Shown here: piece by piece, positions 1 through 15,447 of the stretch | Layout of the letters: each line of letters starts with the position of its first letter | Position numbering within the stretch: position 1 is the stretch's first letter | From: Erythrobacter sp. HL-111 | GTDB lineage: Bacteria; Pseudomonadota; Alphaproteobacteria; Sphingomonadales; Sphingomonadaceae | Reading direction: 5' to 3' | Assembly (NCBI RefSeq): GCF_900105095.1 | Contig: NZ_LT629743.1 | Span: 1,860,001 to 1,924,000, forward strand | Length of the DNA: 64,000 bases | The notes under the pieces: generated by a model | The model's database searches: none | The model's input: only the letters and a program-made list of their open reading frames with translations | Told to the model about the DNA's origin: nothing | Position numbers and translations under genes: made by a program

Positions 1-916
1 CCTGTTTCACGGCAGCGACGGGCGCGAGTCCGGGGAACTGTTTGCCTTCCTGCTCTACGCGGCCCTGCTGACGCGGCCGGTCGGGAGCCTCGCGAGCACC
101 TACGGCCGGTTCCAGATCGCCCTCGGCACGCTCCGCCGGCTCGAGGAGGTGATGGCGATGGAGCCGGAACCCGGCTATCGCGCGCCCCGCAGGCTCGCCC
201 GGGGCAAGGGCGCAATCGCGCTGGAGCAGGTCAGTTTCGGCTATCCCGGCCGCCCGCCCCTGCTCGACAGGGTGGACCTCGAGATCAGGCCCGGCGAGAT
301 CGTCGCGCTCACGGGCGAGAACGGGATCGGCAAGTCGACGCTCGTCAAGCTCATCCTGCGCTTCTACGAACCCGACGAAGGGCGCATCACTCTCGACGGA
401 GAGGACATCGCCGGCCTCCAGGTGCAGGACGTGCGGCGGCAATTCGGCTACGTGCCGCAGCGCGCCCTGCTGTTCGACGGGACCGTGTTCGAAAACATCG
501 CCTTCGGCCTGCCCGATTGCGATCCCGCCGCGCTCGAACGCGCTGCCCGGCACGCGCAGGCCTGGGAATTCATCCAGCGCCTGCCGCAAGGCTTCGAAAC
601 CCCGATCGGCGACGACGGCGTGCGGCTTTCCGGCGGCCAGCGCCAGCGGATCGCGCTCGCCCGGGCGCTGCTGCGCGATCCGCCGATCCTGATCTTCGAC
701 GAGGCGACCAGCATGTACGACCTCGAGGGCGAGGCGGCCTTCGTCGAATCCTGCATCCGGTCGCTCGAGGGCCGGACGGTCATCATCATCACGCACCGCC
801 CGGCGAGCCTCGCGCTCGCGGACCGCGTGATCGCGGCGGGCGATCTCGGCTATGCCATGCATCGCGCCGCGGCGGGCACACCTCCCGGCCAGGCAGGACG
901 CGGGGCCCTGAGGTGA
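1..916 (+). CDS. Lasso-peptide ABC exporter, C-terminal part (partial)
   Basis: This is the 3' end of an ABC exporter subunit with fused membrane and ATPase domains. The reading frame is open from base 2, so the start lies outside the window. The first 50 or so residues are the end of a transmembrane domain. The ATPase domain follows with Walker A (GENGIGKST), the signature LSGGQRQR, Walker B (ILIFDEAT) and a switch-region His (ITHRP). McjD-type exporters with this layout pump mature lasso peptides out and give self-immunity. The stop codon overlaps the GTG start of the cyclase gene by 4 bases, so the two are translationally coupled. The lasso role is inferred from this context; the ABC exporter call itself is secure. 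Confidence 0.9.
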   Translation, partial: LFHGSDGRESGELFAFLLYAALLTRPVGSLASTYGRFQIALGTLRRLEEVMAMEPEPGYRAPRRLARGKGAIALEQVSFGYPGRPPLLDRVDLEIRPGEIVALTGENGIGKSTLVKLILRFYEPDEGRITLDGEDIAGLQVQDVRRQFGYVPQRALLFDGTVFENIAFGLPDCDPAALERAARHAQAWEFIQRLPQGFETPIGDDGVRLSGGQRQRIALARALLRDPPILIFDEATSMYDLEGEAAFVESCIRSLEGRTVIIITHRPASLALADRVIAAGDLGYAMHRAAAGTPPGQAGRGALR

Positions 917-2796
917 GCGGGATCTGCGGGGCGCTGCGGCTGGACGGGAGGGCGGCGCAAGCGGGCGAGCTCGCCGCGGTCCTTGCGGCGCTGGAGCGGC
1001 GCGGTCCCGACGGCTCGCGGCTGGTCGCCGACGGGGCGATGGCGATGGGCTGCGCGCTTCTCGCCAGCACGCCGGAATCGCTGGTTGAGGAAATGCCCTT
1101 CGTCCACCGCGGCACGGGCTGCACGATCACCGCCGACATCCGGCTCGACAATCGCGCGGAACTGATCGAGGCGGTCGGTGCGGATGCTGCGGCGGGCGAC
1201 GGCGAACTGGTCCTGCGGGCCTATCTGCGCTGGGGCAGCGAATGCCTCGCGCGGCTGCGCGGCGACTTCGCCTTCGCGATCTGGGACCCGCGCGCGCGCC
1301 GGTTGTTCTGCGCGCGCGACCGGGTGGGCATGCGCCAGTTCGCCTACCATCATCGGCCCGGCAGGCTGTTCGCCTTCGCAACCGAACCGCGCGCCCTGCT
1401 GCGCCATGACGACGTTCCGATGCGTCTCAACGAGGTGCGGCTGGCCGACTTCTTCGAGAACCTCGAGGCGGCCGACCTCGAATCGACCTTCTTCGAAGGG
1501 CTCAGGCGGCTTCCACCGGCCCATGCGCTGACGGTTGATGCGAAGGGCCTCGAACTGCAGCGCTACTGGAAGCTGGAGGCTCCCGCCCCGCTCAGGCTGG
1601 CGGACGACCGGGAATATGCCGAAGCCTTTCTCGAGGTGTTCCGCCGCTCGGTTTCCGCGCGCCTCAGGGCGCCGGATCCGGTCGGCGCGATGCTGTCGGG
1701 CGGCCTCGATTCGGGCTCGGTCTCGGCGGTCGCGGCGCACCTGCTCGAACAGGAAGGCAGGCCTTCCCTCGCCACCTTCTCGGCGCTGCAGGACGATACG
1801 GACTGCGCCGAATCGAACGCGGTTCGCGCCGCCCTTTCCATCGGACACATCGATCCTGTCCGCGTGACACCCGGTGACGTTCCGGCCATGCGCGAGGAAC
1901 TGCTCGCCCTCACCCGCTCTGCCGAAGAACCGTTCGATGCGAGCATGGCGCTCCTGCGCCTCATGTATCTCGCCGCGCAGCGGAAAGGCCACAAGGTCGT
2001 GCTCGACGGAGGCGGGGGCGACATGGTGCTGGGCGCGAACGACATGGTGATCTGGCATTTGCGCCGGGGCCGGATCGCGCGCGCATGGCGCGAGGCGCGG
2101 GGCATCGAGCGGTTCTGGGGGCCGCAGCCGGGGGCGAAGACGCTTTTCATCCGCAGTTTGGGGCGGGTCTGCGTGCCCGCGCCGCTGCGTGCCGTGCGCC
2201 GGGCGCTGTCGGTTCCGCGGCGCGCGGCGGGGGAAACCCCCACCCTCCTGTCGCCGGAATTCGCGGCCCGCATCGATCTTCCCGCCCGCCGCCGGGCCAA
2301 TGCCGCGCAGGTCGCGGGATTCGGCTGGCAGGAGGACAGCGATCGCGCACGCCGGATGCTCCACCCCTATCTCGTCGTCGGGCGGGAACGCTACGACCGC
2401 GTGGCGGCGGCGCTCGCGATCGAACCGCGCGATCCGTTCTGCGACCAGGACCTGCTCGAATTCTGCATGAGCCTGCCGGGCGAACAGTTCCAGGACCGGG
2501 GCTGGCCCAAGGTCATCCTGCGGCGGGCAACCGCGGGCCTCCTGCCCGATGCGGTGCGCTGGCGCGCGGGCAAGGAGCACCTCGGCGGGCTCTTCGTCGA
2601 AAGCCTCTGGAGCGCAGCCGACCGGCACGACGGCTCCTCCATGGATAACCTGTTGCCTTACATTTCGGCGCAGACCATCGACGCGACGCGCGCCGCCGCG
2701 ACCGGCCGGCCCGCGTGGGATTTGGCTGTTGCCGAGTGGCTTGCCTTCCGCTATGCGTCGAACTGGTTAGGTGAACTAGACAGCCAGCCCGGCTGA
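913..2796 (+). CDS. Lasso-peptide cyclase (asparagine-synthetase-like, C protein)
   Basis: This 627-residue protein resembles asparagine synthetase B. An N-terminal glutaminase-type domain (about 1-200) is followed by an ATP-pyrophosphatase domain with SGGLDS near residues 262-267. Lasso C proteins (McjC type) adenylate the side-chain carboxylate of the ring Glu/Asp and close the macrolactam with the core N-terminus. The protein starts V(M)-S-G-I-C-G: the position of the glutaminase nucleophile Cys2 is Ser, so it should not hydrolyse glutamine, as expected for a cyclase. GTG at 913 is chosen because it overlaps the exporter stop (GTGA) and gives the family N-terminus. The frame stays open further upstream, but only as overlap with the exporter gene. 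The precursor gene begins 10 bases downstream. Confidence 0.93.
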   Translation: MSGICGALRLDGRAAQAGELAAVLAALERRGPDGSRLVADGAMAMGCALLASTPESLVEEMPFVHRGTGCTITADIRLDNRAELIEAVGADAAAGDGELVLRAYLRWGSECLARLRGDFAFAIWDPRARRLFCARDRVGMRQFAYHHRPGRLFAFATEPRALLRHDDVPMRLNEVRLADFFENLEAADLESTFFEGLRRLPPAHALTVDAKGLELQRYWKLEAPAPLRLADDREYAEAFLEVFRRSVSARLRAPDPVGAMLSGGLDSGSVSAVAAHLLEQEGRPSLATFSALQDDTDCAESNAVRAALSIGHIDPVRVTPGDVPAMREELLALTRSAEEPFDASMALLRLMYLAAQRKGHKVVLDGGGGDMVLGANDMVIWHLRRGRIARAWREARGIERFWGPQPGAKTLFIRSLGRVCVPAPLRAVRRALSVPRRAAGETPTLLSPEFAARIDLPARRRANAAQVAGFGWQEDSDRARRMLHPYLVVGRERYDRVAAALAIEPRDPFCDQDLLEFCMSLPGEQFQDRGWPKVILRRATAGLLPDAVRWRAGKEHLGGLFVESLWSAADRHDGSSMDNLLPYISAQTIDATRAAATGRPAWDLAVAEWLAFRYASNWLGELDSQPG

Positions 2797-2806
2797 TGGA
2801 GTGAAT

Positions 2807-2950
2807 ATGGCCAGCTCGACCAAGGCGACCTATCAGCGTCCCACGCTTTCCGTCTACGGCGGCTTTGCCAAACTGACCGCGGCTGGCAGCGGGTTCTTCA
2901 GCGAAGGCCCCAACCAGGGCCCCATGGCCAAGGCCACGCGCAAGATCTGA
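2807..2950 (+). CDS. Lasso-peptide precursor (A protein)
   Basis: This 47-residue peptide has the proteobacterial lasso leader pattern: Y9-x-x-P12-x-L14-x-x-x-G18 and Thr24 as the penultimate leader residue. Placing Thr24 at -2 puts the cut after Ala25. The core then begins AGSGFFSE, so Ala1 and Glu8 can form an 8-residue macrolactam. The tail is GPNQGPMAKATRKI, rich in Gly/Pro and basic at its end. A start at Gly27 would give a 7-residue ring but fits the -2 Thr rule less well. The gene sits between the cyclase and kinase genes, which supports the call. The core lacks the C-terminal Ser used by known lasso kinases, and its only Arg is three residues from the end. The peptide is too short for most gene callers. 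Confidence 0.9.
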   Translation: MASSTKATYQRPTLSVYGGFAKLTAAGSGFFSEGPNQGPMAKATRKI

Positions 2951-3014
2951 CGCGGCGGTTCTGCCTCTTCGGCGCGAGGTTTCCACCATTCCTTTGTAAC
3001 CGGGGCAGCAGCGC

Positions 3015-3941
3015 ATGAATCCCGATGCGCTTCGCGCCGGCCTCCTGCCCGCCTGGTCCCTTCGCCACCTCGGCGCCGGTTCGCCGCCGGGGTTGGCGCC
3101 CACACCTCCCGAAGAAAGCCCCGCCCGCACCCTCCCTTCGAGCGTGCAGCGCCTCGGCGAATCGTTCTGCCTGTCCTTCGCGGGTCTCGCCCGGTTCCTG
3201 ATCGACCTGGCGAAGCAGGAGATAACCGTGTTCGACGTCGCGGCCGAAGCCACGCCGAGCGACCTCGAACACTTCCTCCACGACCACGTGGTGCCGCGCA
3301 TCCTTGCCGAACAGGGTTCGGTGGTCCTGCACGGCAGCGCCGTCGCGATCGGCGGCAGACTGGCGATCTTCCTCGGCAACACCGGCGCGGGCAAGTCCAC
3401 GCTGGCGGCAAGCCTGCACGAGGCCGGGCATCCCCTGCTGGGGGACGACGCGGTCGTCGTCGCGCCCGGGGAGGGCCGCTTCCACGGCCGCGCGGTCTAT
3501 CCGACGCTGCGGCTTTTCCCGGACACGATCTCGCAGGTGTTCGGCGGCGCGGTCGAGACGAGCCCGATGGCGCATTATTCGGACAAGCTGCGGGTGAGCG
3601 TGCCCGCCATCGCCCGGGACGCCGCCCGGTCCTTCCCGCTGGGCGCGCTGTTCTTCCTTACCGGCGAAGGGGGCGCATCGGACCCGCGGGCGGACGAAAC
3701 GAGCCCCAGCGCCGCCTGCATGGCGCTGGTCGAACAGAGCTTCGCGCTCGATCCGGGCGATCCGGGCAAGGCCGCCGCAAGGCTGCGCGAAATCGCGCGC
3801 CTCGCCGGCGCGATACCGGGATATCGCCTGACCTACCCGCACGACTATGGCCGCATCGCGGAATTGCACGGGGTGATCTTCGCCGCGATGGCGCAATCGG
3901 ACACCGGCAATCCCGCGCGAAAACGGGCAATGACGGACTGA
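3015..3941 (+). CDS. HprK-like kinase of the lasso cluster
   Basis: This 308-residue protein resembles the HPr kinase/phosphorylase fold. VVLHGSAV (about 103-110) is followed by Walker A GNTGAGKST (121-129) and LLGDDAVVV (141-149), which carries the acidic catalytic residues of the family. The first 100 residues are variable. HprK-related kinases in lasso clusters (PadeK, ThcoK, SyanoK) phosphorylate the precursor on its C-terminal Ser. Here the last residue is Ile, so the acceptor would have to be an internal Ser or Thr (core Ser3, Ser7, Thr19) or another protein. The stop overlaps the methyltransferase ATG by one base (TGATG), implying joint expression. The HprK fold is clear; the substrate is inferred. 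Confidence 0.82.
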   Translation: MNPDALRAGLLPAWSLRHLGAGSPPGLAPTPPEESPARTLPSSVQRLGESFCLSFAGLARFLIDLAKQEITVFDVAAEATPSDLEHFLHDHVVPRILAEQGSVVLHGSAVAIGGRLAIFLGNTGAGKSTLAASLHEAGHPLLGDDAVVVAPGEGRFHGRAVYPTLRLFPDTISQVFGGAVETSPMAHYSDKLRVSVPAIARDAARSFPLGALFFLTGEGGASDPRADETSPSAACMALVEQSFALDPGDPGKAAARLREIARLAGAIPGYRLTYPHDYGRIAELHGVIFAAMAQSDTGNPARKRAMTD

Positions 3942-5104
3942 TGGGCGGTCCGACCGGATATGATCTCGTCTCCTTCGGTCTCATGATCGAATGCGAACCG
4001 CGCATGGGAATCTACGCCGAAGCCCTGCGGCGCGCGGTCACGCCGGGCTGCACCGTGATCGATATCGGGGCGGGGTTCGGGATCTTCTCGATGCTCGCGG
4101 CCAGGTACGGGGCGGGCAAGGTCATCGCGATCGAGCCCGATCCGGCGGCCGAACTGATCCTGCCCATGGCGAAGGCGAATGGCTGCGCCGACCGGATCGA
4201 GGTCGTCAAGGACATCTCCACCCGCTACGCCCCCGAACGCAAGGCCGACGTCATCGTGTCGGACATCCGCGGGATCACCCCGCTGTTCGAGCATCACATC
4301 GCGACCATCGTCGATGCGCGCGAACGGCTGCTGGCGCCCGGCGGCAGGCTCCTCCCGATGCGCGATACCCTGCGCGTCGCGCCGGTCGAATCGGTGCGGC
4401 ACTATCGCCCGTGCGAGCGGCCGTGGCTGGCGAACAATTACGGGCTCGATCTGTCGGCGGGCCAGAGATACGCCGCCAACACCCTCGCCCCGGCGCTGCT
4501 CAAGCCCGAGGCCCTGCTCGCGCCTTCGCAGGCCTTCGCGATGCTGGATTACCGGACGGTGACCGATCACGACGTCGACAGCACCGTCGGTTTCGTCGCC
4601 GAGCGCGGCGGCGTCTGTCACGGACTGCTCGTCTGGTTCGACGCGGAGATCGACGAGGGGCTCGGCTTCTCGAACGGTCCCGACGGCGACGAACTGGTCT
4701 ACCAGCAGCAGTTCCTGCCGCTCGAACGCCCGGTCAAGCTCGCCCCGGGCGACCGGATCGCCGCACGCCTGCGCGTCCGCCAGGTGGACGGGTCCTACGT
4801 CTGGTCATGGGACACGGATATCGCCGACGGTCCCGGGGGCGGATCGCGGCACGGTTTCCGCCAGTCGACCTTCAGGAGCGCGGTCTTCTCGCCCGAAAGG
4901 CTGAGGCCGCACGCCCATGACCAGGTGCCGCAGCCGACCGCTCGCATGGCGATCGATCGCGATTGCCTCGCGCTGGTGGGTGACGGACGTTCGCTGCAGG
5001 ACATCGCGGACGCGCTGATGAAACGGCATCCGGACCATTTCGCCTCTGGCAAGGACGCGCTCGGGCACCTGACCAAGCTGCTCGAAGGCTATCGCAACGC
5101 CTGA
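3941..5104 (+). CDS. PRMT-like SAM-dependent methyltransferase of the lasso cluster
   Basis: This 387-residue class I methyltransferase has motif I VIDIGAGFGIFSM near residues 40-52 and an acidic IAIEP after beta-2. The stretch VSDIRGITPLFEHH aligns with the double-E loop of protein arginine methyltransferases, with Asp for the first Glu. A beta-barrel-like region follows (about 210-300, ending YVWSW), as in PRMTs, but the THW loop is replaced by VYQQQ. The last 55 residues look like a small winged helix of PqqD type, which may bind the leader. Located between kinase and dioxygenase in a lasso cluster, it probably modifies the precursor. Its single core Arg (Arg20 of the core) is an obvious candidate. 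Methyltransferase is certain, arginine specificity is not. Confidence 0.8.
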   Translation: MGGPTGYDLVSFGLMIECEPRMGIYAEALRRAVTPGCTVIDIGAGFGIFSMLAARYGAGKVIAIEPDPAAELILPMAKANGCADRIEVVKDISTRYAPERKADVIVSDIRGITPLFEHHIATIVDARERLLAPGGRLLPMRDTLRVAPVESVRHYRPCERPWLANNYGLDLSAGQRYAANTLAPALLKPEALLAPSQAFAMLDYRTVTDHDVDSTVGFVAERGGVCHGLLVWFDAEIDEGLGFSNGPDGDELVYQQQFLPLERPVKLAPGDRIAARLRVRQVDGSYVWSWDTDIADGPGGGSRHGFRQSTFRSAVFSPERLRPHAHDQVPQPTARMAIDRDCLALVGDGRSLQDIADALMKRHPDHFASGKDALGHLTKLLEGYRNA

Positions 5105-5128
5105 TCGCCAAGACGGGGCCCGGCCCGT

Positions 5129-5863
5129 TCAGCGCGATATCTTCGCCCGCCGCAAGCGCGCGGCGAAGCCCGGTTTGAACCGGTCGAGCGCGTCCCGCGC
5201 GACGATCAAGCGGTCCTGGTCGTCGTGATTGAGCGTGTCGCACCACCAGTCGCGGCAGAGCGTCGCATAGATCAGCGGACGGGGGCGCGCGCTGCGGTTC
5301 GCCATCCCCTTGTGATGGATGCGATAGTCCCACAGGATGGCTGCGCCGAGCGGCACGTGGGGTTCGTAATCCGGCACCTCGACATGCTCATTGGAACGGT
5401 GGGATCGCAGGGCAAACCCGGTCGGGCCGGTTTCCCCGGTCACTTCGACCAGCGGGATGGCCAGCGTGAGGGCGCTCGCCGGGAGCATGAATTCGAGCGG
5501 ATGCGCGGGAAACAGGATCCCGCCGTCGCGGTGCCAGTGCTGCGCCGGAGCCCCCGGCAGCGCATTGATCAGGCCCCAGGCGTCGAACACGAACCGGGGT
5601 CCGAGACTGGCGCGCACGACCGCTTCGACCGACCGCGGCAAGAGTATCTCGCTGCGGGCGAAGGGTCCGCCGATTTCGATGGCGCCGTAGAACCGGCCCG
5701 GCGAGACGAACACCTTGCTGCCCGCCTCGTCCTCCTCGAACAGGTGGCGGTGCCGGTCCTGCAGGATTTCGAGCCATTCGGCGAGGATCGCGGGATCGGC
5801 CGCCCCGGGGACGATGCAGACGCCGTCGCGCCACAATCGCTCGGCCGGATCCTCTTTCGACAT
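5129..5863 (-). CDS. Phytanoyl-CoA dioxygenase (PhyH) family Fe(II)/2-oxoglutarate oxygenase
   Basis: This 244-residue protein of the PhyH superfamily has the iron-binding His-x-Asp in HWHRDGG (about His111, Asp113). The distal His is in HHKGMANRS (about His184), followed by the 2-oxoglutarate-binding Arg190. The length is normal for the family. ATG at 5863 is chosen because the homologous region starts there; an upstream extension to 6136 would overlap the B1 gene. The gene is convergent to the methyltransferase, with 24 bases between stops, and divergent from B1, so it has its own promoter in the 5864-6083 interval. It may hydroxylate the lasso precursor, by analogy with oxygenases in other RiPP clusters. 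It could instead act on a small molecule. Confidence 0.82.
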   Translation of the reverse strand: MSKEDPAERLWRDGVCIVPGAADPAILAEWLEILQDRHRHLFEEDEAGSKVFVSPGRFYGAIEIGGPFARSEILLPRSVEAVVRASLGPRFVFDAWGLINALPGAPAQHWHRDGGILFPAHPLEFMLPASALTLAIPLVEVTGETGPTGFALRSHRSNEHVEVPDYEPHVPLGAAILWDYRIHHKGMANRSARPRPLIYATLCRDWWCDTLNHDDQDRLIVARDALDRFKPGFAARLRRAKISR

Positions 5864-6083
5864 TGCTCGCCGTCCCCATGGCTCGATCCGTCGGAGAGGT
5901 TGCAGAAACCGCCCTCCGCTTGCAAGCGCGCCGCCGGATCGTGCCCGCCGCATCACTCCTGCCGCATCCCTGCCCCACCCTTCCCGCAGCCCCTGTCCTG
6001 CGCGCGGACAGACCATGCGAGAGGCTTCACATGGCGCGGCGTCCGTGCGAGAGCGGAGACTCCGTGCAAGAGGGGGATGCCCG

Positions 6084-6362
6084 ATGAGTGACATGCTGCG
6101 GGAGCATTGGCGGCCGAGCGACGACGCGATCGCCAATCCCGTCGGCGGCGAGACGGTGATCCTGCACCTCGGGAACGGGACCTATTACGGGCTCGACACG
6201 ATCGGCAGCATCCTGTGGGAAGGGCTCAAGGAAGGACAGCGGCCGGCCGACATATGCGACCGGATCCTCGAGCAATACGAAGTGGAGCGCGAGACGCTGG
6301 AGAACGACCTGCGCCGGTTCCTGTCCGAACTGGCCGAAAACGAACTGGTCGTGCGCGCCTGA
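6084..6362 (+). CDS. Lasso-peptide B1 protein (PqqD-like RiPP recognition element)
   Basis: This 92-residue protein matches the PqqD fold: two beta strands (ETVILHLGNGTYYGLD), then helices with ILWEGLKEG and a C-terminal helix ending ELAENELVV. In split lasso systems this B1 protein binds the precursor leader (its Y-x-x-P-x-L motif) and delivers it to the B2 peptidase. ATG 6084 has AGGGGG 8 bases upstream. The frame stays open upstream with another ATG at 6014, but the family begins near 6084. B2 follows 71 bases later on the same strand. Confidence 0.88.
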   Translation: MSDMLREHWRPSDDAIANPVGGETVILHLGNGTYYGLDTIGSILWEGLKEGQRPADICDRILEQYEVERETLENDLRRFLSELAENELVVRA

Positions 6363-6433
6363 AGCCCGCTTGCCAGGGGCGGCGGCGCGGGCGCGCTTGA
6401 CCGCGGCGGCCTTTCCGGGTCATCGCGGCGCTG

Positions 6434-6886
6434 ATGCGAGAGACGATCCCGATCGCGAAGCTCCTGTTCCTCGCCGCGCGCGCGGGATTCGAACTCGCGC
6501 GGGCGCGCCTCCTGCTTTCCCGGATCCGGCCGGGCGACATCATGCAGCGCAATGCCCGCGTCGCGGCGAGGGAAGCCGCACTGGCACGAACCCCGGACGA
6601 GGCGGCGACAAATCGGCTCTGCGGGGAAATGGCCTTTGCGATCACCCGCATGGCGCTGCACGTGCCGTGGCGGTCCGATTGCCTCGTCCAGGCGCTCGCG
6701 GGGCAGAACTGGCTGGCCCGGCAGGCTGTCGCGAGCGAGATCGTGGTCGGCACGGCGAGGGGGCGGGAAGGAACCTTCGAAGCCCACGCCTGGCTGTCGC
6801 GCGGATCGACGGTCCTTCTCGGAGGGAATGTCGACCGGTTCAGCCCCCTGCTTGGGCCGGCTGCCGCGCCCGCCGGCGAAGGATGA
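6434..6886 (+). CDS. Lasso-peptide B2 leader peptidase (transglutaminase-like)
   Basis: This 150-residue protein of the transglutaminase-like lasso B family has Cys83 in WRSDCLVQAL and His118 in FEAHAWL, the Cys-His pair of the cysteine protease centre. An Asp downstream (Asp134) may complete the triad. These enzymes cut the precursor after the leader, probably between Ala25 and Ala26 here, so that the cyclase can close the ring. It lies directly after the B1 gene, the usual pairing. No lasso isopeptidase gene or dedicated TonB receptor follows, unlike the A-C-B-E clusters common in this order. Confidence 0.9.
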   Translation: MRETIPIAKLLFLAARAGFELARARLLLSRIRPGDIMQRNARVAAREAALARTPDEAATNRLCGEMAFAITRMALHVPWRSDCLVQALAGQNWLARQAVASEIVVGTARGREGTFEAHAWLSRGSTVLLGGNVDRFSPLLGPAAAPAGEG

Positions 6887-7049
6887 AGGCGAAGCGTCCC
6901 TGCGATCCCTCCATCGCACCATCCATTCGGGCAGCGCACAGAAGGGGCGCAGGGACTCGCGTCGCGCCTCTTCATTTCGGTGAACTGCCTGTTGCCAAAC
7001 TCGCCGCGTTGCACTAGGGAAACTGACGGAATATCGCGATGCGAGGCCG

Positions 7050-7316
7050 ATGATGATGAAAACGACTTCCCGTGTCATGCTGACCGTCGCAGCCGCCGGT
7101 CTGGCGCTTTCGCCGATCGCCGCCCAGGCCAACACCCGCGCGGGTGACAGCACCGCGACCTACAGCGCGCCCGTCTCGCAGCCCGGCATGGGCCGCAGCG
7201 CCGAAGGGGAAAAGCTGGTCGGCCCCGGGTTCATCGCCGCGATCCTCGCCGCTGCCGCCGCGGTCGGCATCATCCTCCTCCTCGACGACGACGACGATCA
7301 GTCGCCGGGCGCCTGA
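7050..7316 (+). CDS. Small secreted or membrane-anchored protein with an acidic tail
   Basis: This 88-residue protein has an N-terminal signal peptide (about 1-27, ending AAQA), a Gly/Ser-rich middle, one C-terminal hydrophobic helix (GPGFIAAILAAAAAVGIILLL) and a run of five Asp. No domain was recognised. GAGG 5 bases before the first of three consecutive Met codons favours ATG 7050. A strong terminator follows at 7360, so it forms its own unit between the lasso cluster and the polysaccharide-type genes. The orientation suggests a periplasmic protein tethered to the inner membrane with a short acidic cytoplasmic end. The function is unknown. Confidence 0.7.
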   Translation: MMMKTTSRVMLTVAAAGLALSPIAAQANTRAGDSTATYSAPVSQPGMGRSAEGEKLVGPGFIAAILAAAAAVGIILLLDDDDDQSPGA

Positions 7317-7359
7317 GGTGAACCTGCGGGCCACCATGGTCCGGCCGGAATGGAATTGA

Positions 7360-7389
7360 ACGCACGGTACGCCCTACCGTGCGTTTTTT
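7360..7389 (+). terminator. Rho-independent terminator
   Basis: A perfect 10-bp stem (ACGCACGGTA with TACCGTGCGT) closes a 5-base loop (7370-7374) and runs into six T residues. It terminates the 88-residue protein gene and separates it from the following O-antigen-ligase-like gene. Confidence 0.92.
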
Positions 7390-7411
7390 CTTGAGGGGCT
7401 GACGTCTGCAG

Positions 7412-8818
7412 GTGGCTATGCCGGGCCCCTCCTCGCTTTCGGGCAGCAGCATGGGCCGGCAATCGCCCGATCTCGCCGTGAGCGGACGCTCGGGTCTCTT
7501 CGCGCTCGGTACGGTCCTGATCGTCGCGGCGGCGCTGGGCGGCGGAGGCCAACGCTACGGGCTCGCCAACCTCGCCGTGCAACTGACCGCGCTCGCGGCG
7601 CTCGCCCTCCACCCTGCGGCGTTCGCGGCGTTCCGGACATCGGCCCCCCTTGCTCTGCGCGCGCTGGCGGGCCTTTCGCTCCTCCTGCCCCTGCTCCAGC
7701 TCGTTCCTCTTCCGCCGGCGATCTGGACCGCGCTGCCCGGACGCGATCTGGTCGTCCAGTCGCTCGAAGCGGCCGGCATGGCCGGCTGGATGCCCTTCAG
7801 CCTCGATCCGCACCGAACGCTGCTCGCGCTGACCGCGCTGGTGACGCCCCTCGCCGTGCTCGCTGCGGGCTGGACCCTGAGGCGGGAGCAGATCGCCATG
7901 CTGGGCTGGCTCGTCGTGGCTCTCGGTATCCTCAACCTGCTGATCGGGGCCGTGCAGGTCTCCTCGCCGGGCGGGAGAGCAAGCCTTTTCGACGAGGTGC
8001 TGCCCGAGGAAGTGCTGCTCGGCACCTTCGCCAACCGCAATTCGACCGCGCTGTTCCTCGTCGGGGCGCTCGGCTTTGCGGCGCTTGTCCCCGCGCCGTG
8101 GGCGCGGCGAGCCGAGCTTGCCCTGCGGGTCGGGCTCTGCGCGCTCCTCTTGCTGGCGATCATCCTCACGCGCTCGCGCACCGGGCTCGTCCTCGCGCTC
8201 GTTCCGCTCGGCCTCGCGGCGCTGCGGGCGCTGTCCTGGTCCGCCTCGCGCGGCCCCGCCAGGGGATCCGGGCGCGCCCGCCCACGTTCGCTGGCGTTAA
8301 CTGCCGGAGCGGCGGCGGTGGCGGCGGCGCTTTTCGCGGGGCTGCTGGTGCTTGCCCCCGGAAGGGTGGCCGACACCGTCGAACGCTTCGGCGCGCTCGA
8401 CCGCGACGCGCGGAGCTACATCTGGGAGGATGCGGCCTATTCGTCCTCGCGCTACTGGCCACTCGGCGCGGGGATGGGCACTTTCGACGAGGTCTTCCAG
8501 ATCGACGAATCGCTCGAGAACATGACCGTCCGCCGGGCGGGGCGGGCGCATAACGACTATCTCGAAATCGCCATCGAAGCCGGGCTTCCCGGCCTCGTGC
8601 TGGTCGCGGCGTGGCTGCTGCTGGTCGGATGGCTGAGCTGGCAGGCGCGGCGCTCTCGCTGGCGCTGGACGGGATGGGCAGGGGCCTCCTTCCTCGTCTG
8701 CATCGCGCTGCAGTCGATCACCGATTACCCGTTGCGGAACCAGACCATCCTCGCCGCGGCGGGTCTTGCGCTGCTGGCGCTGGCGCGGACCGCGCAGGCG
8801 CCGGGGGAGCGCGCATGA
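7412..8818 (+). CDS. O-antigen ligase / polymerase family membrane protein
   Basis: This 468-residue protein has about ten transmembrane helices and a large periplasmic loop. The motif RAHNDYLEIAIEAGLPGL is typical of the Wzy/WaaL (O-antigen ligase) superfamily, and FANRNSTALFLVGALGF is another family landmark. Members polymerise or ligate lipid-linked oligosaccharides at the outer face of the inner membrane, or glycosylate pilins. GTG 7412 is the first start; ATG 7418 or 7454 would also work. The stop overlaps the next gene's ATG (ATGA), so the two form an operon. There are no glycosyltransferases nearby, so the substrate cannot be read from context. Confidence 0.85.
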   Translation: MAMPGPSSLSGSSMGRQSPDLAVSGRSGLFALGTVLIVAAALGGGGQRYGLANLAVQLTALAALALHPAAFAAFRTSAPLALRALAGLSLLLPLLQLVPLPPAIWTALPGRDLVVQSLEAAGMAGWMPFSLDPHRTLLALTALVTPLAVLAAGWTLRREQIAMLGWLVVALGILNLLIGAVQVSSPGGRASLFDEVLPEEVLLGTFANRNSTALFLVGALGFAALVPAPWARRAELALRVGLCALLLLAIILTRSRTGLVLALVPLGLAALRALSWSASRGPARGSGRARPRSLALTAGAAAVAAALFAGLLVLAPGRVADTVERFGALDRDARSYIWEDAAYSSSRYWPLGAGMGTFDEVFQIDESLENMTVRRAGRAHNDYLEIAIEAGLPGLVLVAAWLLLVGWLSWQARRSRWRWTGWAGASFLVCIALQSITDYPLRNQTILAAAGLALLALARTAQAPGERA

Positions 8819-9712: not shown

Positions 9713-12700
9713 TCAGAACCGGAAGCGGACGTTCAGCGAGCCGCCATAGCCATCGAGGTCGTCCCCGGTGAGGTAATTGCCCTGCAGGCTGCCGGTGATC
9801 GCGTCATCCTCGTTGCCGATCGTGATGCCGGCCGAAAGATCCACGTAGTCGTCGAAAGGCTGGTTGCCGAACAACACGCGGTTGGGGCCGGTCGCGAAGC
9901 TGACCGCGGTGTCGTCGCCGCCGAGTTCGTGGGCGTAGTGGGCGCCCACGAAGACGACGCCCGAGGTTCCCCCGAGATCGAAGCCGATCCCGGCCCGCGC
10001 CCCGCCCCGTGCCAGCGCGCCATCGCCCGCATCGAAGGCGAAGGTGCCCTGGGCGGTGACGATGTCATCAAGGTCGGAGCTGGCATAGGCGAAGCTGACG
10101 CTCGGCTCGAGGAAGAACGCCCTGCGGTCGCCGAGCAGCGCCCCGGCTTCGGCCTGGACCCCCATCACCGAGCCTTCGACATCGGCCGTCAGCCCGGCTG
10201 TGTTGCTCTGGAGCGTGCCGTTAACGCTGTCGTACTTGGCCAGCGCGTTCGCCCAGAATGCGCCGATATCCGCGGTCATGTAGGCACCGAGGCTGAAGAC
10301 GTCGTAGTCGATCCCGTTCGAGGACGCGGTGAATTCGACGTCGCTGCTCTGGTAGCCCGCGGTCACGCCGTAACGCACCGCGCTGGTCCCGAAATCGATC
10401 CCGGCGAGCATTCCCCAGAAGTCCTGGTCATAGCCGAGTTCGTGGGTCCCGGCGATGTTGTTGAACACGGTGTTCCTGACCTGCTCGCGTTCGAGGCTGC
10501 TGCCGAACCCGGTGAGCCAGGCGCGCGTCGTCTTGTCGCCGCCGCCGACGCTGCTTTCATCCGAACCGCCGGTGTCGCGCATCGTCGCCATCTGGTCCGC
10601 GAAGGCATTGGCCGATTGGGTCCACAGGTTGCGCGCGGTCTCGGCGAAGGTGCTGAATTCGAGCGCCGCGGTCGACGGGGCGGTGGCGAGGAAGAAATCA
10701 TTGCCCGCCGGGTCGAAGGCGAGATCGAATTCGATCAGGCCGATGGTCTGGCGCCCGCCGACGAGATCGAAGGCGTTTGCCGTGGTGCCCGCGCCGGCAT
10801 CGACGACCAGGATGTCCGAGACGAGGCCACTGGGCTGGGTGCCGGCCGGGTTCACCGTGACCACGGTCGAACCCGTCGCGGCGCCTTCGATCGTCAGCGT
10901 GTCGGCGGTCGCGGCGGCGAGGTCGACATCCACGTTGAGGGTCGAACCGCCGGTCCCGACGAAGTTGCCGGAGGTTGCAAGGTTGTTGCCGGAAGTCCCG
11001 TCGGCCATGTCGATCAGGCCCTCGTTGGCGAAGGTTTCGAGGCCCGTGATGTTCACGGGGCCGGCGCTGGCCACCCGGAAGGTGCCGGTGTTCACCAGGG
11101 AGTCGGTGCCGCCGCCGAAGGCGCTGTGGCCGATGGCGAGGAATTCGCCGTTGTTGGTCAGCGTGTCGGCCGCATCGTCGAGCGTCACGAAGCCGACCAG
11201 TTCGCCGTTATTCGTGATCTGCGATCCGGCCGGGCCGCGGGCACGGATGGCCTCGCGCGTGTCGGCGCTGACGAAGCCGTCGTTGACGATCACCGTCGGC
11301 GCAGTGCCGTTGTTCACGGCATAGATGCCCGGTTCCGTGCCGGTGACATCGCCGGAAGTCGCGATCGAGATGCCGGTGGAATCGGCACCGCCGCGCACGC
11401 TGATCCCGCTTCCGGCAAGGCCCGTGGCATCGGCCGCCGTGACGGTCAGCGAACCGGTGCCATCGGCGGCGGCGTAGATGCCGTTGGCCCCGCCGACGAT
11501 GGCGCCTGCCGAAGTGTCGATCGCGGCATCCGCCCCGGTGGTGATCACGCTGATCGCGTTGCCGCTCGTCCCGGTCACGTCCGCTGTGGCGATCGTCAGC
11601 GTGCCGGCCGAGACGCTGGCGAGTATCCCGGTCGTCGCGCCGCTCACCGCGCCCGCGGTGGTGTCGATCGCCAGCGAGGTCCCGACCCCGCTCGCGTCGA
11701 TGCCCGGGCCTGCGGTGCCGGTGACGTCGGCGGTCGTGATCGTGGTGGCGCCCGCCCCGTCGGAGCGGACCGTGATGCCCGACACGCCGCCCGAGACCGC
11801 GCCCGCGGTGGTCGTCACGTCGAGGCTCGTGCCGGTGGCCGCGTTGCGCACGAAGACGCCGAAGCCGCTGCCCGCGGTCACGTCCGCCGTGGTGATCGCG
11901 GTCGCGCCCGAACCGTAGTTCTCGGCATAGATGCCGTTGGTCGCGCCGCCGATCGCACCGGCGGAAGTGTCGATGGCGAGGTCGGTGCCGGCCGCCGTGA
12001 GGTTGCCGTAAACGCCGGTCCCCCCGGCGCTGGTCACGTCGCCGCCGGTGATCGAGAGCGCGCCGGTCCCTTCGTTCCGGACCGCGATGCCGACCAGGGC
12101 GGCTGTCACGTCACCGGCGCTGGTGTCGATCGTGAGGTCGGTCGTGCTCGCCGCGTTGATCGCGTAGACGCCGTAGCGGCCCTCCGCGTCGATGTCGGCC
12201 GTGGTGATCGTGGTCGATCCGGTGCCGTCGTTGAGCGCGGCGATCCCGTCGGTCGCGCCGGTCACGCTGCCCGCGGTGGTGTCGATCGCCAGCGAATCCG
12301 CAGTCGCCGCATTGCTCGCCGAAATCGCGTTGTCGCCAGTCGAGGTCACGTCGGCCGTGGTGATCGAAGTGTTGCCGGTGCCCCCGTTCTCGGCCGAAAT
12401 GCCGGTCGAGCCCGACGAGATCGCACCTGCCGCGGAATCGATGATGATGTCGGTCGCGGTGGCGGTGTTCTCCGCCAGGATGCCGATACTGCCCGCCGAA
12501 ACATCGGCGGCCGTGATCGACACCGCACCCGTGCCTGCATTGCTCCGAACGGAAATGCCGTCACCCCCGCCCGTAACCGTGCCGGCCGTGCTATCGATGG
12601 CAACCCCGGTGGTGCCGGTGTCGGTCCGCACGTCGATCCCGTCGGTCACCCCGGTCACATCGGCCGTGGTGATCGTTACGCCGCCCGTCCCGTAATGCCC

Positions 12701-15447
12701 GGCGATCATGCCATAGCGGCCGCCACTGACGCTGCCCGCGACCGTGTCGATCGTGATGCTGCCGCCGCCAATGCTTTCGCCGAGCACGCCGTCGCCCGTC
12801 GCAGAGTTAACGTCCGCCGTGGTGATGAAGACATCGCCGCCCGCTGCATCGACCCGTGCGCGAACACCGATGCGATCCGCGGTCACCGTCCCCGCGCTCG
12901 TGTCGACCGTGACAGTGCCGCCGCCAAGGCTTCGGGCAAAGACGCCGTCATAGGTTGCCGAGGAGACGTCTGCTGTCGTGATCGTGACGCTGCCCGCTCC
13001 GGAACTCTCGGCGAGCACGCCGAACTGCGTGCCGCTGACGCTTCCGCCGGTCGTGTCGACGGCAATGGTGCCCGCACCATCCGTGATCGCGAGGATGCCG
13101 CTGGCGAACGCAGTGCCATCGCCCGTCACGTCGCCGATCGCGGCACTCGTGCCGATGGCGATGTCGCCGCCGCCCAGCGCGTAGGCGACGATACCGTCCC
13201 CGCCCGTGCCGGTCACCCCCCCGACGAGGCCGACGCCCTGGATCGAGATCGCGCCGCCGTCGCTCACCGCGATAATGCCGGTGCCGCCCGTGCCGAGGAT
13301 CGTCCCGATGTCGCTGACCGCGATCGCGCCGCCCGCGGATTCGAGGTCGAGACCGTCGCCCGCCTGCCCGGTCACGCTGTCGAAGTCGGTGACGAGGATG
13401 TCCGCACCGGCCGTGATCGCCTGGATGCCGTCGGTCGCCCCGACGATGTCGCCGGACGAGCCCTGGATCGTGATGTCCGCCGTCGCCTGTGCCGAACGCG
13501 CGAAGATGCCGAAGGCCGAACCGCCGGTCACGTCGCCGGTGGTGATCGTGAGCGGGCCGGACCCGAAATGCTCGGCATAGATGCCGTGCGAGCCCCCGCT
13601 CACCGTGCCCGCGCTGGCGTCGATCGCGAAGCTGGTGCCGTTCGCGCTCTGGTAGCCGTAGACGCCCGTGCCGCCGATCGCGGTCACGTCCGCGGTGGTG
13701 ATCGAAAGCGCGCCCGTGCCGTAGCTGCGCGCGCCGATCCCGACCAGGGCGCTGGTGACGGTCCCCGCGCTGCTGTCGATCGAGAGATCGGTCCCCGCAG
13801 CCGAGTTCACCGCGCCGATCCCGAGTTCGCCTGCGCCCGCCACGTCCGCCGTCGTGATCGAGAGCGCACCGCTCCCCCCGCTCGAAGCGTAGATGCCGAC
13901 GGTCGCACCGCTCACCGCTCCGGCGGCCGTGTCGATCGTCAGGTCCGTGGCTGCGCCATAGGCGTAGATGCCGTAGGCGCTCGTGCCGGTCACGTTACCG
14001 GTGGTGATCGTGGTCGCCCCGGTGCCGAAATTGCTGGCGACGATGCCGATCTCGCCGCTTACGCTTCCCGCGCTGCTGTCGATCGTCAGGTCCGTGCCGA
14101 TGCCGTAGGCGTAGATGCCGTAGCCCGCCGTTCCGGTCACGTCGCCGGTCGTCACCGAAAGCGCGCCCGTGCCCCCGTTGAACGCGGTAATGCCGGCGGT
14201 CGCCCCGGTAACCCCGCCGACCGTATCGATCGTCAGGCCGGAGCCCGCGTTGTAGGCCAGGATGCCTTCCGCGGTGGTTCCGGTGACAGCATCCGCGCGG
14301 ATCGCGAGTTCGCCCGTCCCGTAATGCACCGCCTCGATGCCGCGCGCCCCGCTGATCGCGCGGAAGGCCGAAATCGTGGCCGTCGTACCGTAGCTCGTCG
14401 ACCTGATCGCCGCGCCGGCGGCCGCGACGATGTCCCCGGCAACGATGCTCGTGTCTCCCGAACCCTGGTTCAGGACGTTGATGCCGATGTCCGAAGCGGT
14501 CACGCTCCCCTGCGTGGTGTTGACGAGGATGTCGTCCCCGGCGACATTGACCGCAAGCACGCCGTCGCCGTCGGCGCCCGTCACGTCGGCGGTGTCTCGA
14601 TCACGAGATTGCCGGCGCCGCCATTGCGGCCATAGACCCCTATCGTCCCGCCGAAGACGGTCCCCGCGCTCGTATCGATCCGCAGGCTCCCGGCGCTGTT
14701 CTCGAACGCGATCAGGCCATATCTCGTCAGGCCCGTCACATTGCCGGTCACCACTTCGGTCTGGCTCGTGGAACTGGTGAAGACGCTGATGCCGCGGGTC
14801 TGCCCCACGACATCGCCGTCCACGGTGATGAGGTCGAAGCGATCGCCGGAATGTGTGCCTGAAATCCCGACCCCGGTCGTTCCCGTGATCGGGCCGCCGG
14901 TCCGCACGCGGACCAGGCCGGCGTTGTTCGTGAAGGTGAAGCCGTTGTCGCCGACGATCGAGCTGCTGCCCGAAACCTGGTTCAATGTCAGGCCGCCATT
15001 GGTGGTGACCTGCAGGCCGTCTCCGCCGACACCGGTCGTGTCGATGGCGAAGCCGTCGTCGATCAGGATATCGAGATTCGTGCCGGCGATCACCTGGGTG
15101 GTCGTGGCGGGCGGGCCGTTGTCCTCGCAGGTGACTTAGTCAGGGCCGGTCACGGCGCAGGCGTCCTGCGCGGCGGCAGGGGTGGCGATCGCAAGGCCCG
15201 AAGCGAGAAGCGCGATCGGCGCGGAGCCCCAGCGAAGGGCGCTCGTCGCTGCCCGCAAAAGGGCGCTCCGCCCCTCGCCCGTCCGCGGTTCGATCGTCAC
15301 GGCAAGGCCGAGATCGGGCGAATAGCTCGCCGCCACACCCTTGTGCTTCGTCATGCGGCCGCCGCGCAGCATGGCCGGGCCGACCGGCCCGCGAACCTCG
15401 CCGCCGATACCCGCCCGATCGATCGCCGCGTCCAGGATGTTCTTCAT
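9713..15447 (-). pseudogene. Giant repeat-rich autotransporter, interrupted by a stop codon and a frameshift
   Basis: One gene of about 1,900 codons is read from 15447 down to 9713. It has an extended N-terminus with a signal peptide ending PAAAQ, a passenger of about 50-residue repeats, and a C-terminal autotransporter beta-barrel (about the last 280 residues, ending in the aromatic-terminated strand NVRFRF). Two lesions break it. An in-frame TAA at 15136-15138 lies between ACAVTGPD and VTCEDNG. An extra 2 bases near 14592-14595 turn the expected ETADVTG into ETPPT-stop. The downstream 1,623 codons stay open, so decay is recent or the lesions are assembly errors. The intact product would be an outer-membrane-anchored, surface-exposed beta-helix protein, possibly an adhesin. 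Confidence 0.85.
11300..14590 (-). repeat. Tandem degenerate repeats of the autotransporter passenger
   Basis: About 20 or more degenerate units of roughly 50 codons (about 150 bp) run in tandem. Each unit carries the landmarks ITTADVTG, GIYA, LTIDTSAG and VSGATxGI. In protein terms this is a beta-helix passenger in which each unit adds coils. Similar units at the DNA level could recombine and change copy number. The edges are approximate. Confidence 0.8.

Follow-up and report, generated by a model that had tools for sequence, protein, structure and literature searches.

A lasso-peptide gene cluster of Erythrobacter sp. HL-111 with four predicted tailoring enzymes, including a PRMT-like methyltransferase with an apparently changed active site

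The first 6886 positions of a 64,000-nucleotide stretch of the Erythrobacter sp. HL-111 genome (3.19 Mb, single contig; the whole stretch, G000:C1:1860001-1924000, is referred to as the window) hold a gene set which, judged by its sequence, is a lasso-peptide biosynthetic cluster with a predicted threaded product. The question raised by this locus is what its tailoring enzymes would do to the peptide and, above all, what would be modified by a methyltransferase (MT) related to protein arginine methyltransferases (PRMTs). All eight genes named in the original prediction, i.e., an exporter (D), a cyclase (C), a precursor (A), an HprK-like kinase (K), the MT, a PhyH oxygenase (PhyH), a protein with a RiPP recognition element (RRE; RiPP, ribosomally synthesized and post-translationally modified peptide) (B1), and a leader peptidase (B2), were located within 1-6886 with Pfam and NCBIfam profiles. 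That prediction of a multiply tailored lasso peptide is supported as regards the presence of several tailoring enzymes, but their number is four, not three, as a nucleotidyltransferase gene (N), placed upstream of the window, had been missed. The cluster is ordinary in its frame, not in its equipment, and its real puzzle is the rewired PRMT.

The MT gene (3941-5104, plus strand) overlaps by one base, at its start, with the stop of the kinase gene. Sequence comparison marks its product as a PRMT (PRMT1, E 3.3e-35), with both PF06325 and PF22528 (PRMT_C) above the cutoff. The AlphaFold2 (AF2) model (predicted local distance difference test, pLDDT, 92.2; predicted template modelling score, pTM, 0.83) gave Foldseek matches to PRMT6 (E 1e-25), then PRMT2 and PRMT1, and so Pfam, the model, and the sequence and structure matches all indicate a PRMT fold with the PRMT_C barrel. 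The likeness to PRMT1, 2, 6, and 8 thus covers the fold, the S-adenosyl methionine (SAM)-binding region and the barrel, whereas the MT differs from them in its replaced double-E and THW loops, an extra helical C-terminal extension and a co-encoded lasso precursor. Arginine is bound in PRMTs by the double-E and THW loops. When the MT is aligned to PRMT1, Asp108 takes the place of the first double-E glutamate, residue 117 the place of the second, and VYQQ stands at the position of the THW loop; neither a double-E loop with both glutamates nor a THW loop was found. Among 75 aligned MTs (that of the window plus 74 from the 120 matches listed, out of 863 above the threshold), Asp108, Arg110, and Tyr254 (at the THW position) are present in 75/75 and His119 in 73/75, while residue 117 is Glu in 42, Gln in 32, and Gly in one (Glu in the window). 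As the first glutamate is replaced by aspartate and the THW loop is lost, an arginine acceptor is not to be assumed, and the MT looks like a PRMT-like enzyme with a changed active site, perhaps with another job.

For comparison, 60 regions around MT matches were fetched from the genus and the family, and annotated with profiles made from the loci themselves. Thirteen loci, including the one analyzed here and L005 (from a metagenome-assembled genome labelled Hyphomicrobiales, at a contig edge and very like L047), constitute type I. Genes C, K, MT, B1, and B2 are each present in 13/13 of them, N in 12/13 (the single locus without it is cut by a contig end), and PhyH in 3/13. Since the loci were found through the MT, its presence in this set is by construction, and the cyclase search served as an independent check: among 114 congeneric genomes, the 11 cyclases of at least 51% identity (own included) fall in exactly the 11 genomes with a close MT and occupy the same loci. 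The order N-D-C-A-K-MT-PhyH(minus)-B1-B2 is identical in E. donghaensis (protein identity 45-77%), where the two following genes are kept too; because the whole gene order recurs, the gathering is more than chance. Thus K, N, and MT are standard equipment in this group and PhyH is a rare addition, so that the surprise originally expressed at the gathering of tailoring genes is half justified. Relatives carrying the precursor and cyclase without the tailoring enzymes, which had been named as a finding that would speak against the prediction, occur in part: ten type I loci have cyclase, kinase, and MT but no PhyH, and in a more distant type (below) 23 precursors lie in kinase-bearing clusters without MT. 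Of the 11 congeneric genomes with a cyclase of at least 51% identity, 0/11 lack the kinase or the MT.

The precursor gene (2807-2950, plus strand; NF033521 lasso leader, 19.9 bits, cutoff 19) encodes a leader (2807-2881, MASSTKATYQRPTLSVYGGFAKLTA) and a predicted core (2882-2947, AGSGFFSEGPNQGPMAKATRKI) with the ring Ala1-Glu8. It shows the YxxPxL leader motif (YQRPTL), Thr(-2) (LT/A), and an acidic residue at core positions 7-9 (Glu8); the core is of 22 residues, as originally claimed, provided that Thr(-2) marks the cleavage site. Seven database homologues are 72-98% identical to this precursor. Precursors were detected in 12/13 type I loci (18 precursors). L046, L060, and L064 yielded no precursor. 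Type I cores open with xG[ST]xxxxE (Ser/Thr3 and an acid at position 8 in 18/18 each), and their tails end basic, with R/K/H as the penultimate residue in all 18 and Arg within the last three in 17. A tail Met is present in 17/18 (the exception is L080), in comparison with about 26% expected at an assumed Met frequency of 2.5% and uncorrected for kinship.

A second group of loci, type II, has MTs 24-34% identical to those of type I, N and D opposite to B1, K, MT, and C, with B2 apart, leaders ending with GSVRNLTG or nearly so, and cores mostly with Ser2. Further loci of this type were gathered by a type II cyclase search (32 regions fetched in addition to 20 earlier ones), and they occur both with and without the MT. 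Altogether 56 precursors were compared, all from kinase-bearing loci except for two orphan pairs (described below). The count excludes L109 and L151 (cyclase match, no kinase, no MT), loci L100-L104 (kinase-bearing, no MT, Met after the acid in 2/5), and clear non-precursor matches (the second one of L067 and those of L085 and L105); for L053 the reading frame was determined manually, and L144 was added in the same way. In the tails after the ring acid, Met is present in 31/33 precursors with MT vs. 1/23 without it (Fisher p 2.8e-12), which makes it the strongest of the 20 residues in this comparison; counted by residue, Met makes up 86/324 of tail positions with MT vs. 2/201 without.

It might be argued, in line with its ancestry, that the MT still functions as an arginine methyltransferase and modifies Arg20 (or Lys) in the C-terminal tail. 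Its nearest solved relatives are indeed PRMT1/8/6/2, and the basic ends of type I tails, together with Arg20 conserved in 7/7 of the nearest database precursors, would suit such an enzyme. The pocket speaks against it, as the first double-E glutamate is replaced in every aligned member and the second one is kept in only 42/75. By locus, Asp108 occurs in 13/13 of type I, 31/31 of type II, and 2/2 of the orphans; the second Glu in 8/13, 0/31, and 0/2, respectively; and Trp254 in none of them. By contrast, 26 paralogues without a lasso cluster retain the first Glu, the second Glu, and the Trp in 25 cases each. In type II MTs, an Asp stands one column before the position of the second Glu (31/31), and therefore an acid may remain. 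Moreover, L080 has the MT and a core without Arg, and in type II tails Arg is found in 7/33 with MT vs. 21/23 without it. An arginine acceptor is therefore considered unlikely. The MTs of three lasso-like loci (L054, L083, and L084) are of the same family and keep Glu, Glu, and Trp (3/3), which counts against arginine as the acceptor of the altered enzymes and also against a rewiring common to all MTs of such loci; the rewiring is therefore a feature of types I and II that other lasso-associated members need not share. These three loci, with kinase, cyclase, B1, and B2 profile matches, have another layout, and a leader-pattern search gave no convincing precursor in them.

The MT carries a helical C-terminal extension of about 60 residues (~328-387), present in 13/13 type I, 2/2 orphan, and 26/31 type II enzymes, and in 0/3 of the lasso-like loci and 0/26 paralogues. 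By eye it had seemed to be an RRE domain fused to the MT, which was upheld neither by profile comparison nor by the model: hhalign against B1 gave a probability of 35% for type I and 1% for type II, PqqD matched 4/75 members at best weakly (E 0.079), and the model at 334-385 has three helices and no strands.

A further observation concerns genomes G288 and G305, whose main clusters (L112 and L113) have no MT and a tail NNSRF. Elsewhere in the same genomes there are orphan pairs of a precursor (GSANVGQDGALGMTMNP and GSANRGSDGALGMTMNP, respectively) and an MT (L050:8956-10380 and L051:8649-10074). No cyclase, kinase, B1, or B2 profile match was found within 9 kb of these pairs; the only other lasso-profile match nearby was an ABC exporter, some 7-9 kb away. 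A Met sulfonium in a ribosomal peptide has a precedent in longipeptin A, a RiPP product of another kind, with S-methylated Met13 and LopH as the proposed enzyme (PMC11285071). It is possible, albeit rather speculative, that a recruited PRMT lost its arginine clamp and S-methylates a tail Met, that the resulting fixed-charge sulfonium replaces the Arg/Lys of sister peptides lacking the enzyme, and that the precursor-MT pair is mobile and served in trans by the kinase, peptidase, and cyclase of the host cluster.

Several observations weigh against S-methylation of Met, or at least against its general validity. Three of the seven nearest database precursors (P0150, P0151, and P0155, cluster context unseen) carry Asn, Arg, or Ser in place of Met15, and for this reason Met as the acceptor in the window is not accepted as settled. 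L080 combines an MT with a core devoid of Met; in L120 the MT has no C-terminal extension and Met is confined to the ring; and L121 has a tail Met and no MT. The MTs of L052, L123, and L133 also lack the extension, yet the tails have Met. L128, which together with L120 makes up the two MT-bearing exceptions of type II, rather speaks for Met, as its Met-less tail accompanies an MT with an internal deletion (approximately profile positions 87-176 missing). The type I and type II MTs are only about 24-34% identical and their pockets differ, so that their acceptors may differ too. Finally, on the cyclase tree (51 rows), the MT changes at least six times and the tail Met at least six times; on well-supported branches there are three pairs (six on all branches), in which Met changes the same way 2.5 times on average and the other way 0.1 times, and three such pairs are too few for a sign test to become significant (median p 0.25).

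Another view is that the MT esterifies the C-terminal carboxylate, as StspM and LasF do, and that Met-rich or basic tails merely fit its pocket. Lasso precursors methylated at the C-terminal carboxyl group are on record (PMC9266682), and the invariant Arg110 and near-invariant His119 of the type I pocket could bind an anion. Every precursor has a C-terminus, though, so the tracking of tail Met with the MT in type II would stay unexplained. StspM was modelled on mitomycin 7-O-methyltransferase rather than a PRMT, and StspM, LasF, and the PIMT-type enzymes, although lasso-cluster methyltransferases as well, are O-methyltransferases of other kinds, set apart by description from the PRMT-like enzyme of the window (PMC9266682). 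We regard carboxylate esterification as improbable, on a par with arginine methylation. S-methylation of Met15 thus stays ahead of the C-terminal carboxylate and of Arg/Lys as the best single candidate, although a tentative one.

Kinase K (3015-3941, plus strand) matches PF07475 with 26.4 bits, below the cutoff of 33.3, and its best NCBIfam match, the HprK_rel_A equivalog TIGR04352, reaches 41.9 bits, below the cutoff of 200. It keeps the catalytic motif of BsfK-type lasso kinases, i.e., the His (LHGSAV), the P-loop Gly/Lys/Ser (GNTGAGKST), and Asp-Asp (LLGDD), and is 37% identical to BsfK over 177 aa (E 6e-19). BsfK phosphorylates Ser3 of its own core, aided by B1 (PMC10368454), and the Ser/Thr at core position 3 is conserved throughout type I, as noted above. 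The precursor BsfA reads ...IIRGTSGNEVDG..., with the core starting at Gly1 (GTSGNEVD). The bsf cluster of Bradymonas sediminis resembles that of the window in having A, B1, B2, C, and D, a homologous kinase, and a nucleotidyltransferase, as well as core Ser3 and acid 8 at the same places and a YxxPxL leader; it differs in the leader residue -2 (Ile, vs. Thr here), and no methyltransferase or oxygenase is described for it in the available part of the source (PMC10368454). PadeK, ThcoK, and PsmK, which belong to the same HprK-like family, might suggest phosphorylation of a C-terminal Ser. In the systems of pseudomycoidin (psmK and psmN) and paeninodin (padeK), which share the kinase and, in pseudomycoidin, the nucleotidyltransferase with the present cluster, it is the C-terminal Ser that is modified, and the accessible text names neither a methyltransferase nor an oxygenase for these systems (PMC9266682). 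The core of the window ends with Ile and 0/18 type I cores end with Ser; a paeninodin-type modification is therefore unlikely and, given the resemblance of K to a Ser3 kinase, phosphorylation of a C-terminal Ser was rejected as extremely improbable.

Gene N (G000:C1:1858097-1859242; PF14907 nucleotidyltransferase, 88.8 bits) lies directly before exporter D. In pseudomycoidin, hexoses on phosphoserine reportedly depend on the nucleotidyltransferase gene (PMC9266682), and this precedent is the reason for the role predicted for N below.

The PhyH gene (5129-5863, minus strand; PF05721, 47 bits, cutoff 22) encodes a putative Fe(II)/2-oxoglutarate (2OG) oxygenase; among solved structures, kanamycin B dioxygenase comes closest to it (E 7e-23). 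H111, D113, H184, and R195, which we take to be the 2-His-1-Asp metal triad and the 2OG-binding Arg, are present in 26/26 aligned sequences (the window and 25 of 28 relatives). In E. oryzae, where the order is otherwise the same, B1 follows within about 45 bases of the MT, which gives PhyH the look of a gene inserted between these two. The gene could be a neighbour inserted by chance, without a role in the lasso pathway: it lies on the opposite strand and is missing from 10/13 type I loci. Because of the opposite strand, PhyH does not share a transcript with MT and B1, which likewise tells against its part in the pathway. Yet PhyH keeps the same position and strand in three genomes (own; L004/L040; L041), and its relatives are few: a protein search gave 28 at E ≤0.001 (own included), of which 24 are at least 50% identical, and among the 114 congeneric genomes strong relatives occur only in the own one and two others, with nine more being weaker (27-37% identity). 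Four PhyH/MT pairs also agree in the length of the longest contig (7580, 5343, 39743, and 8497), which suggests shared contigs. Furthermore, the precursors of the PhyH-bearing L003, L040, and L041 and seven database homologues share the segment EGPNQGPx[AS]KA[TA]R, which is absent from PhyH-free type I precursors; this shared tail motif makes residues 10-17 the likely PhyH target. In G243 (L117), a 36% identical PhyH relative is likewise found next to kinase-, B1-, and cyclase-like genes, which may form a further peptide cluster with PhyH. A chance insertion thus seems unlikely, and an action of PhyH on the peptide is preferred. A lasso-cluster Fe/2OG oxygenase acting on the precursor with B1 is known in CanE, which hydroxylates a C-terminal Asp (PMC9266682) and is set apart by this description, as the core of the window has no Asp and its oxygenase belongs to the PhyH family.

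Taken in order, the proposed steps would form a lasso-peptide pathway with leader-guided tailoring, which is rather probable. B1 would present the precursor; K would, with good likelihood, phosphorylate core Ser3 in the future ring; and N might, with about even chances, elaborate the Ser3 phosphate by analogy to what was reported for PsmN on phosphoserine. The MT would probably methylate the C-terminal tail of the linear precursor. PhyH presumably acts on the peptide, where it would hydroxylate the GPNQGPxAK segment special to PhyH-bearing precursors. B2 would then cut after Ala(-1), C would close Ala1-Glu8, and D would export the product. The mass shifts of +80, +14, and +16 Da proposed originally remain reasonable, with the provisos that N may add more and that the methyl acceptor need not be arginine. 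The calculated mass of the predicted lasso peptide is 2232.111 Da, which would become 2312.077 Da with a phosphate, 2326.093 Da with phosphate and methyl, and 2342.088 Da with an oxygen in addition.

The frame of the cluster has, as expected of a lasso locus, B1, B2, and an asparagine-synthetase-like cyclase. The ABC exporter D is represented in the window by its C-terminal part (1/2-916, plus strand; PF00005, 128.7 bits; 65% identical in E. donghaensis), as it starts upstream; the entire gene spans G000:C1:1859249-1860916 (complete open reading frame, ORF, in L003:11250-12917). The macrolactam cyclase C (913-2796, plus strand) matches PF00733 (142.9 bits) and PF13537, and its best NCBIfam match is the lasso cyclase NF033535 (454 bits, under the cutoff of 525). 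They are accompanied by the PqqD-type RRE protein B1 (6084-6362, plus strand; PF05402, 70.2 bits) and the transglutaminase-like leader peptidase B2 (6434-6886, plus strand; NF033537, 67.1 bits, cutoff 33; PF13471). The GC content is even across the cluster (68-72% per kilobase of 1-7000), and a scan of 2700-6500 for promoters and terminators gave zero promoter-like sites and one terminator-like site, not above shuffled sequence. The region 7050-8818, with an 88-residue ORF and an O-antigen-ligase-like gene (PF04932), adjoins the cluster also in E. donghaensis and E. oryzae. Visual inspection suggests sugar-nucleotide genes on the opposite flank and, in a 1623-residue ORF (9713-14584, minus strand), repeats and an autotransporter-like end.

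Some other lasso loci are worth mentioning. In L082 (8550-8909), L123, L125, L126, L129, L130, L131, L132, and L136, a Peptidase_S74 (endosialidase chaperone) domain with the motif SDxRxKEN...GVMADEVE... directly follows the core of the precursor; PF13884 was above the cutoff in 3/3 tested (L082, L123, and L126), and the others were assigned by the motif. S74 domains are self-cleaving in phage tail proteins, and therefore the core may be freed by autoproteolysis; no mention of a lasso peptide was found in the open-licence papers searched in this connection. In the same genus, loci L100-L104 form a further lasso type with a kinase, whose conserved Cys-containing cores read GCPDA[LI]D...FPAGTPFG[ED]LTCG. 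L109 and L151 have precursors with GSVRNLTG leaders and Cys cores beside the cyclase, and no kinase profile match in the fetched stretch.

Multiply modified lasso peptides as such have already been published (PMC13352647), and a pan-genome study of Erythrobacter notes lasso clusters, giving no gene detail in its available part (PMC9723273). In the available parts of the open-licence literature, including PMC9266682, PMC13352647, and PMC11285071, no lasso cluster with a PRMT-like or PhyH enzyme was found described; PMC8120280 lists a phytanoyl-CoA dioxygenase next to a PqqD protein, although for clusters of thioamide RiPPs and not for a lasso cluster. The PRMT-like protein therefore appears to be a type of lasso tailoring enzyme undescribed in that literature, and the findings suggest that phosphorylation and methylation go together in this Erythrobacter-related cluster group. 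The lost arginine-binding residues, the link with Met tails in one type, and the stand-alone pairs make the methyl acceptor of a PRMT devoid of the double-E loop testable with small peptides, and a lasso peptide carrying multiple modifications can well be expected in the lineage with PhyH.

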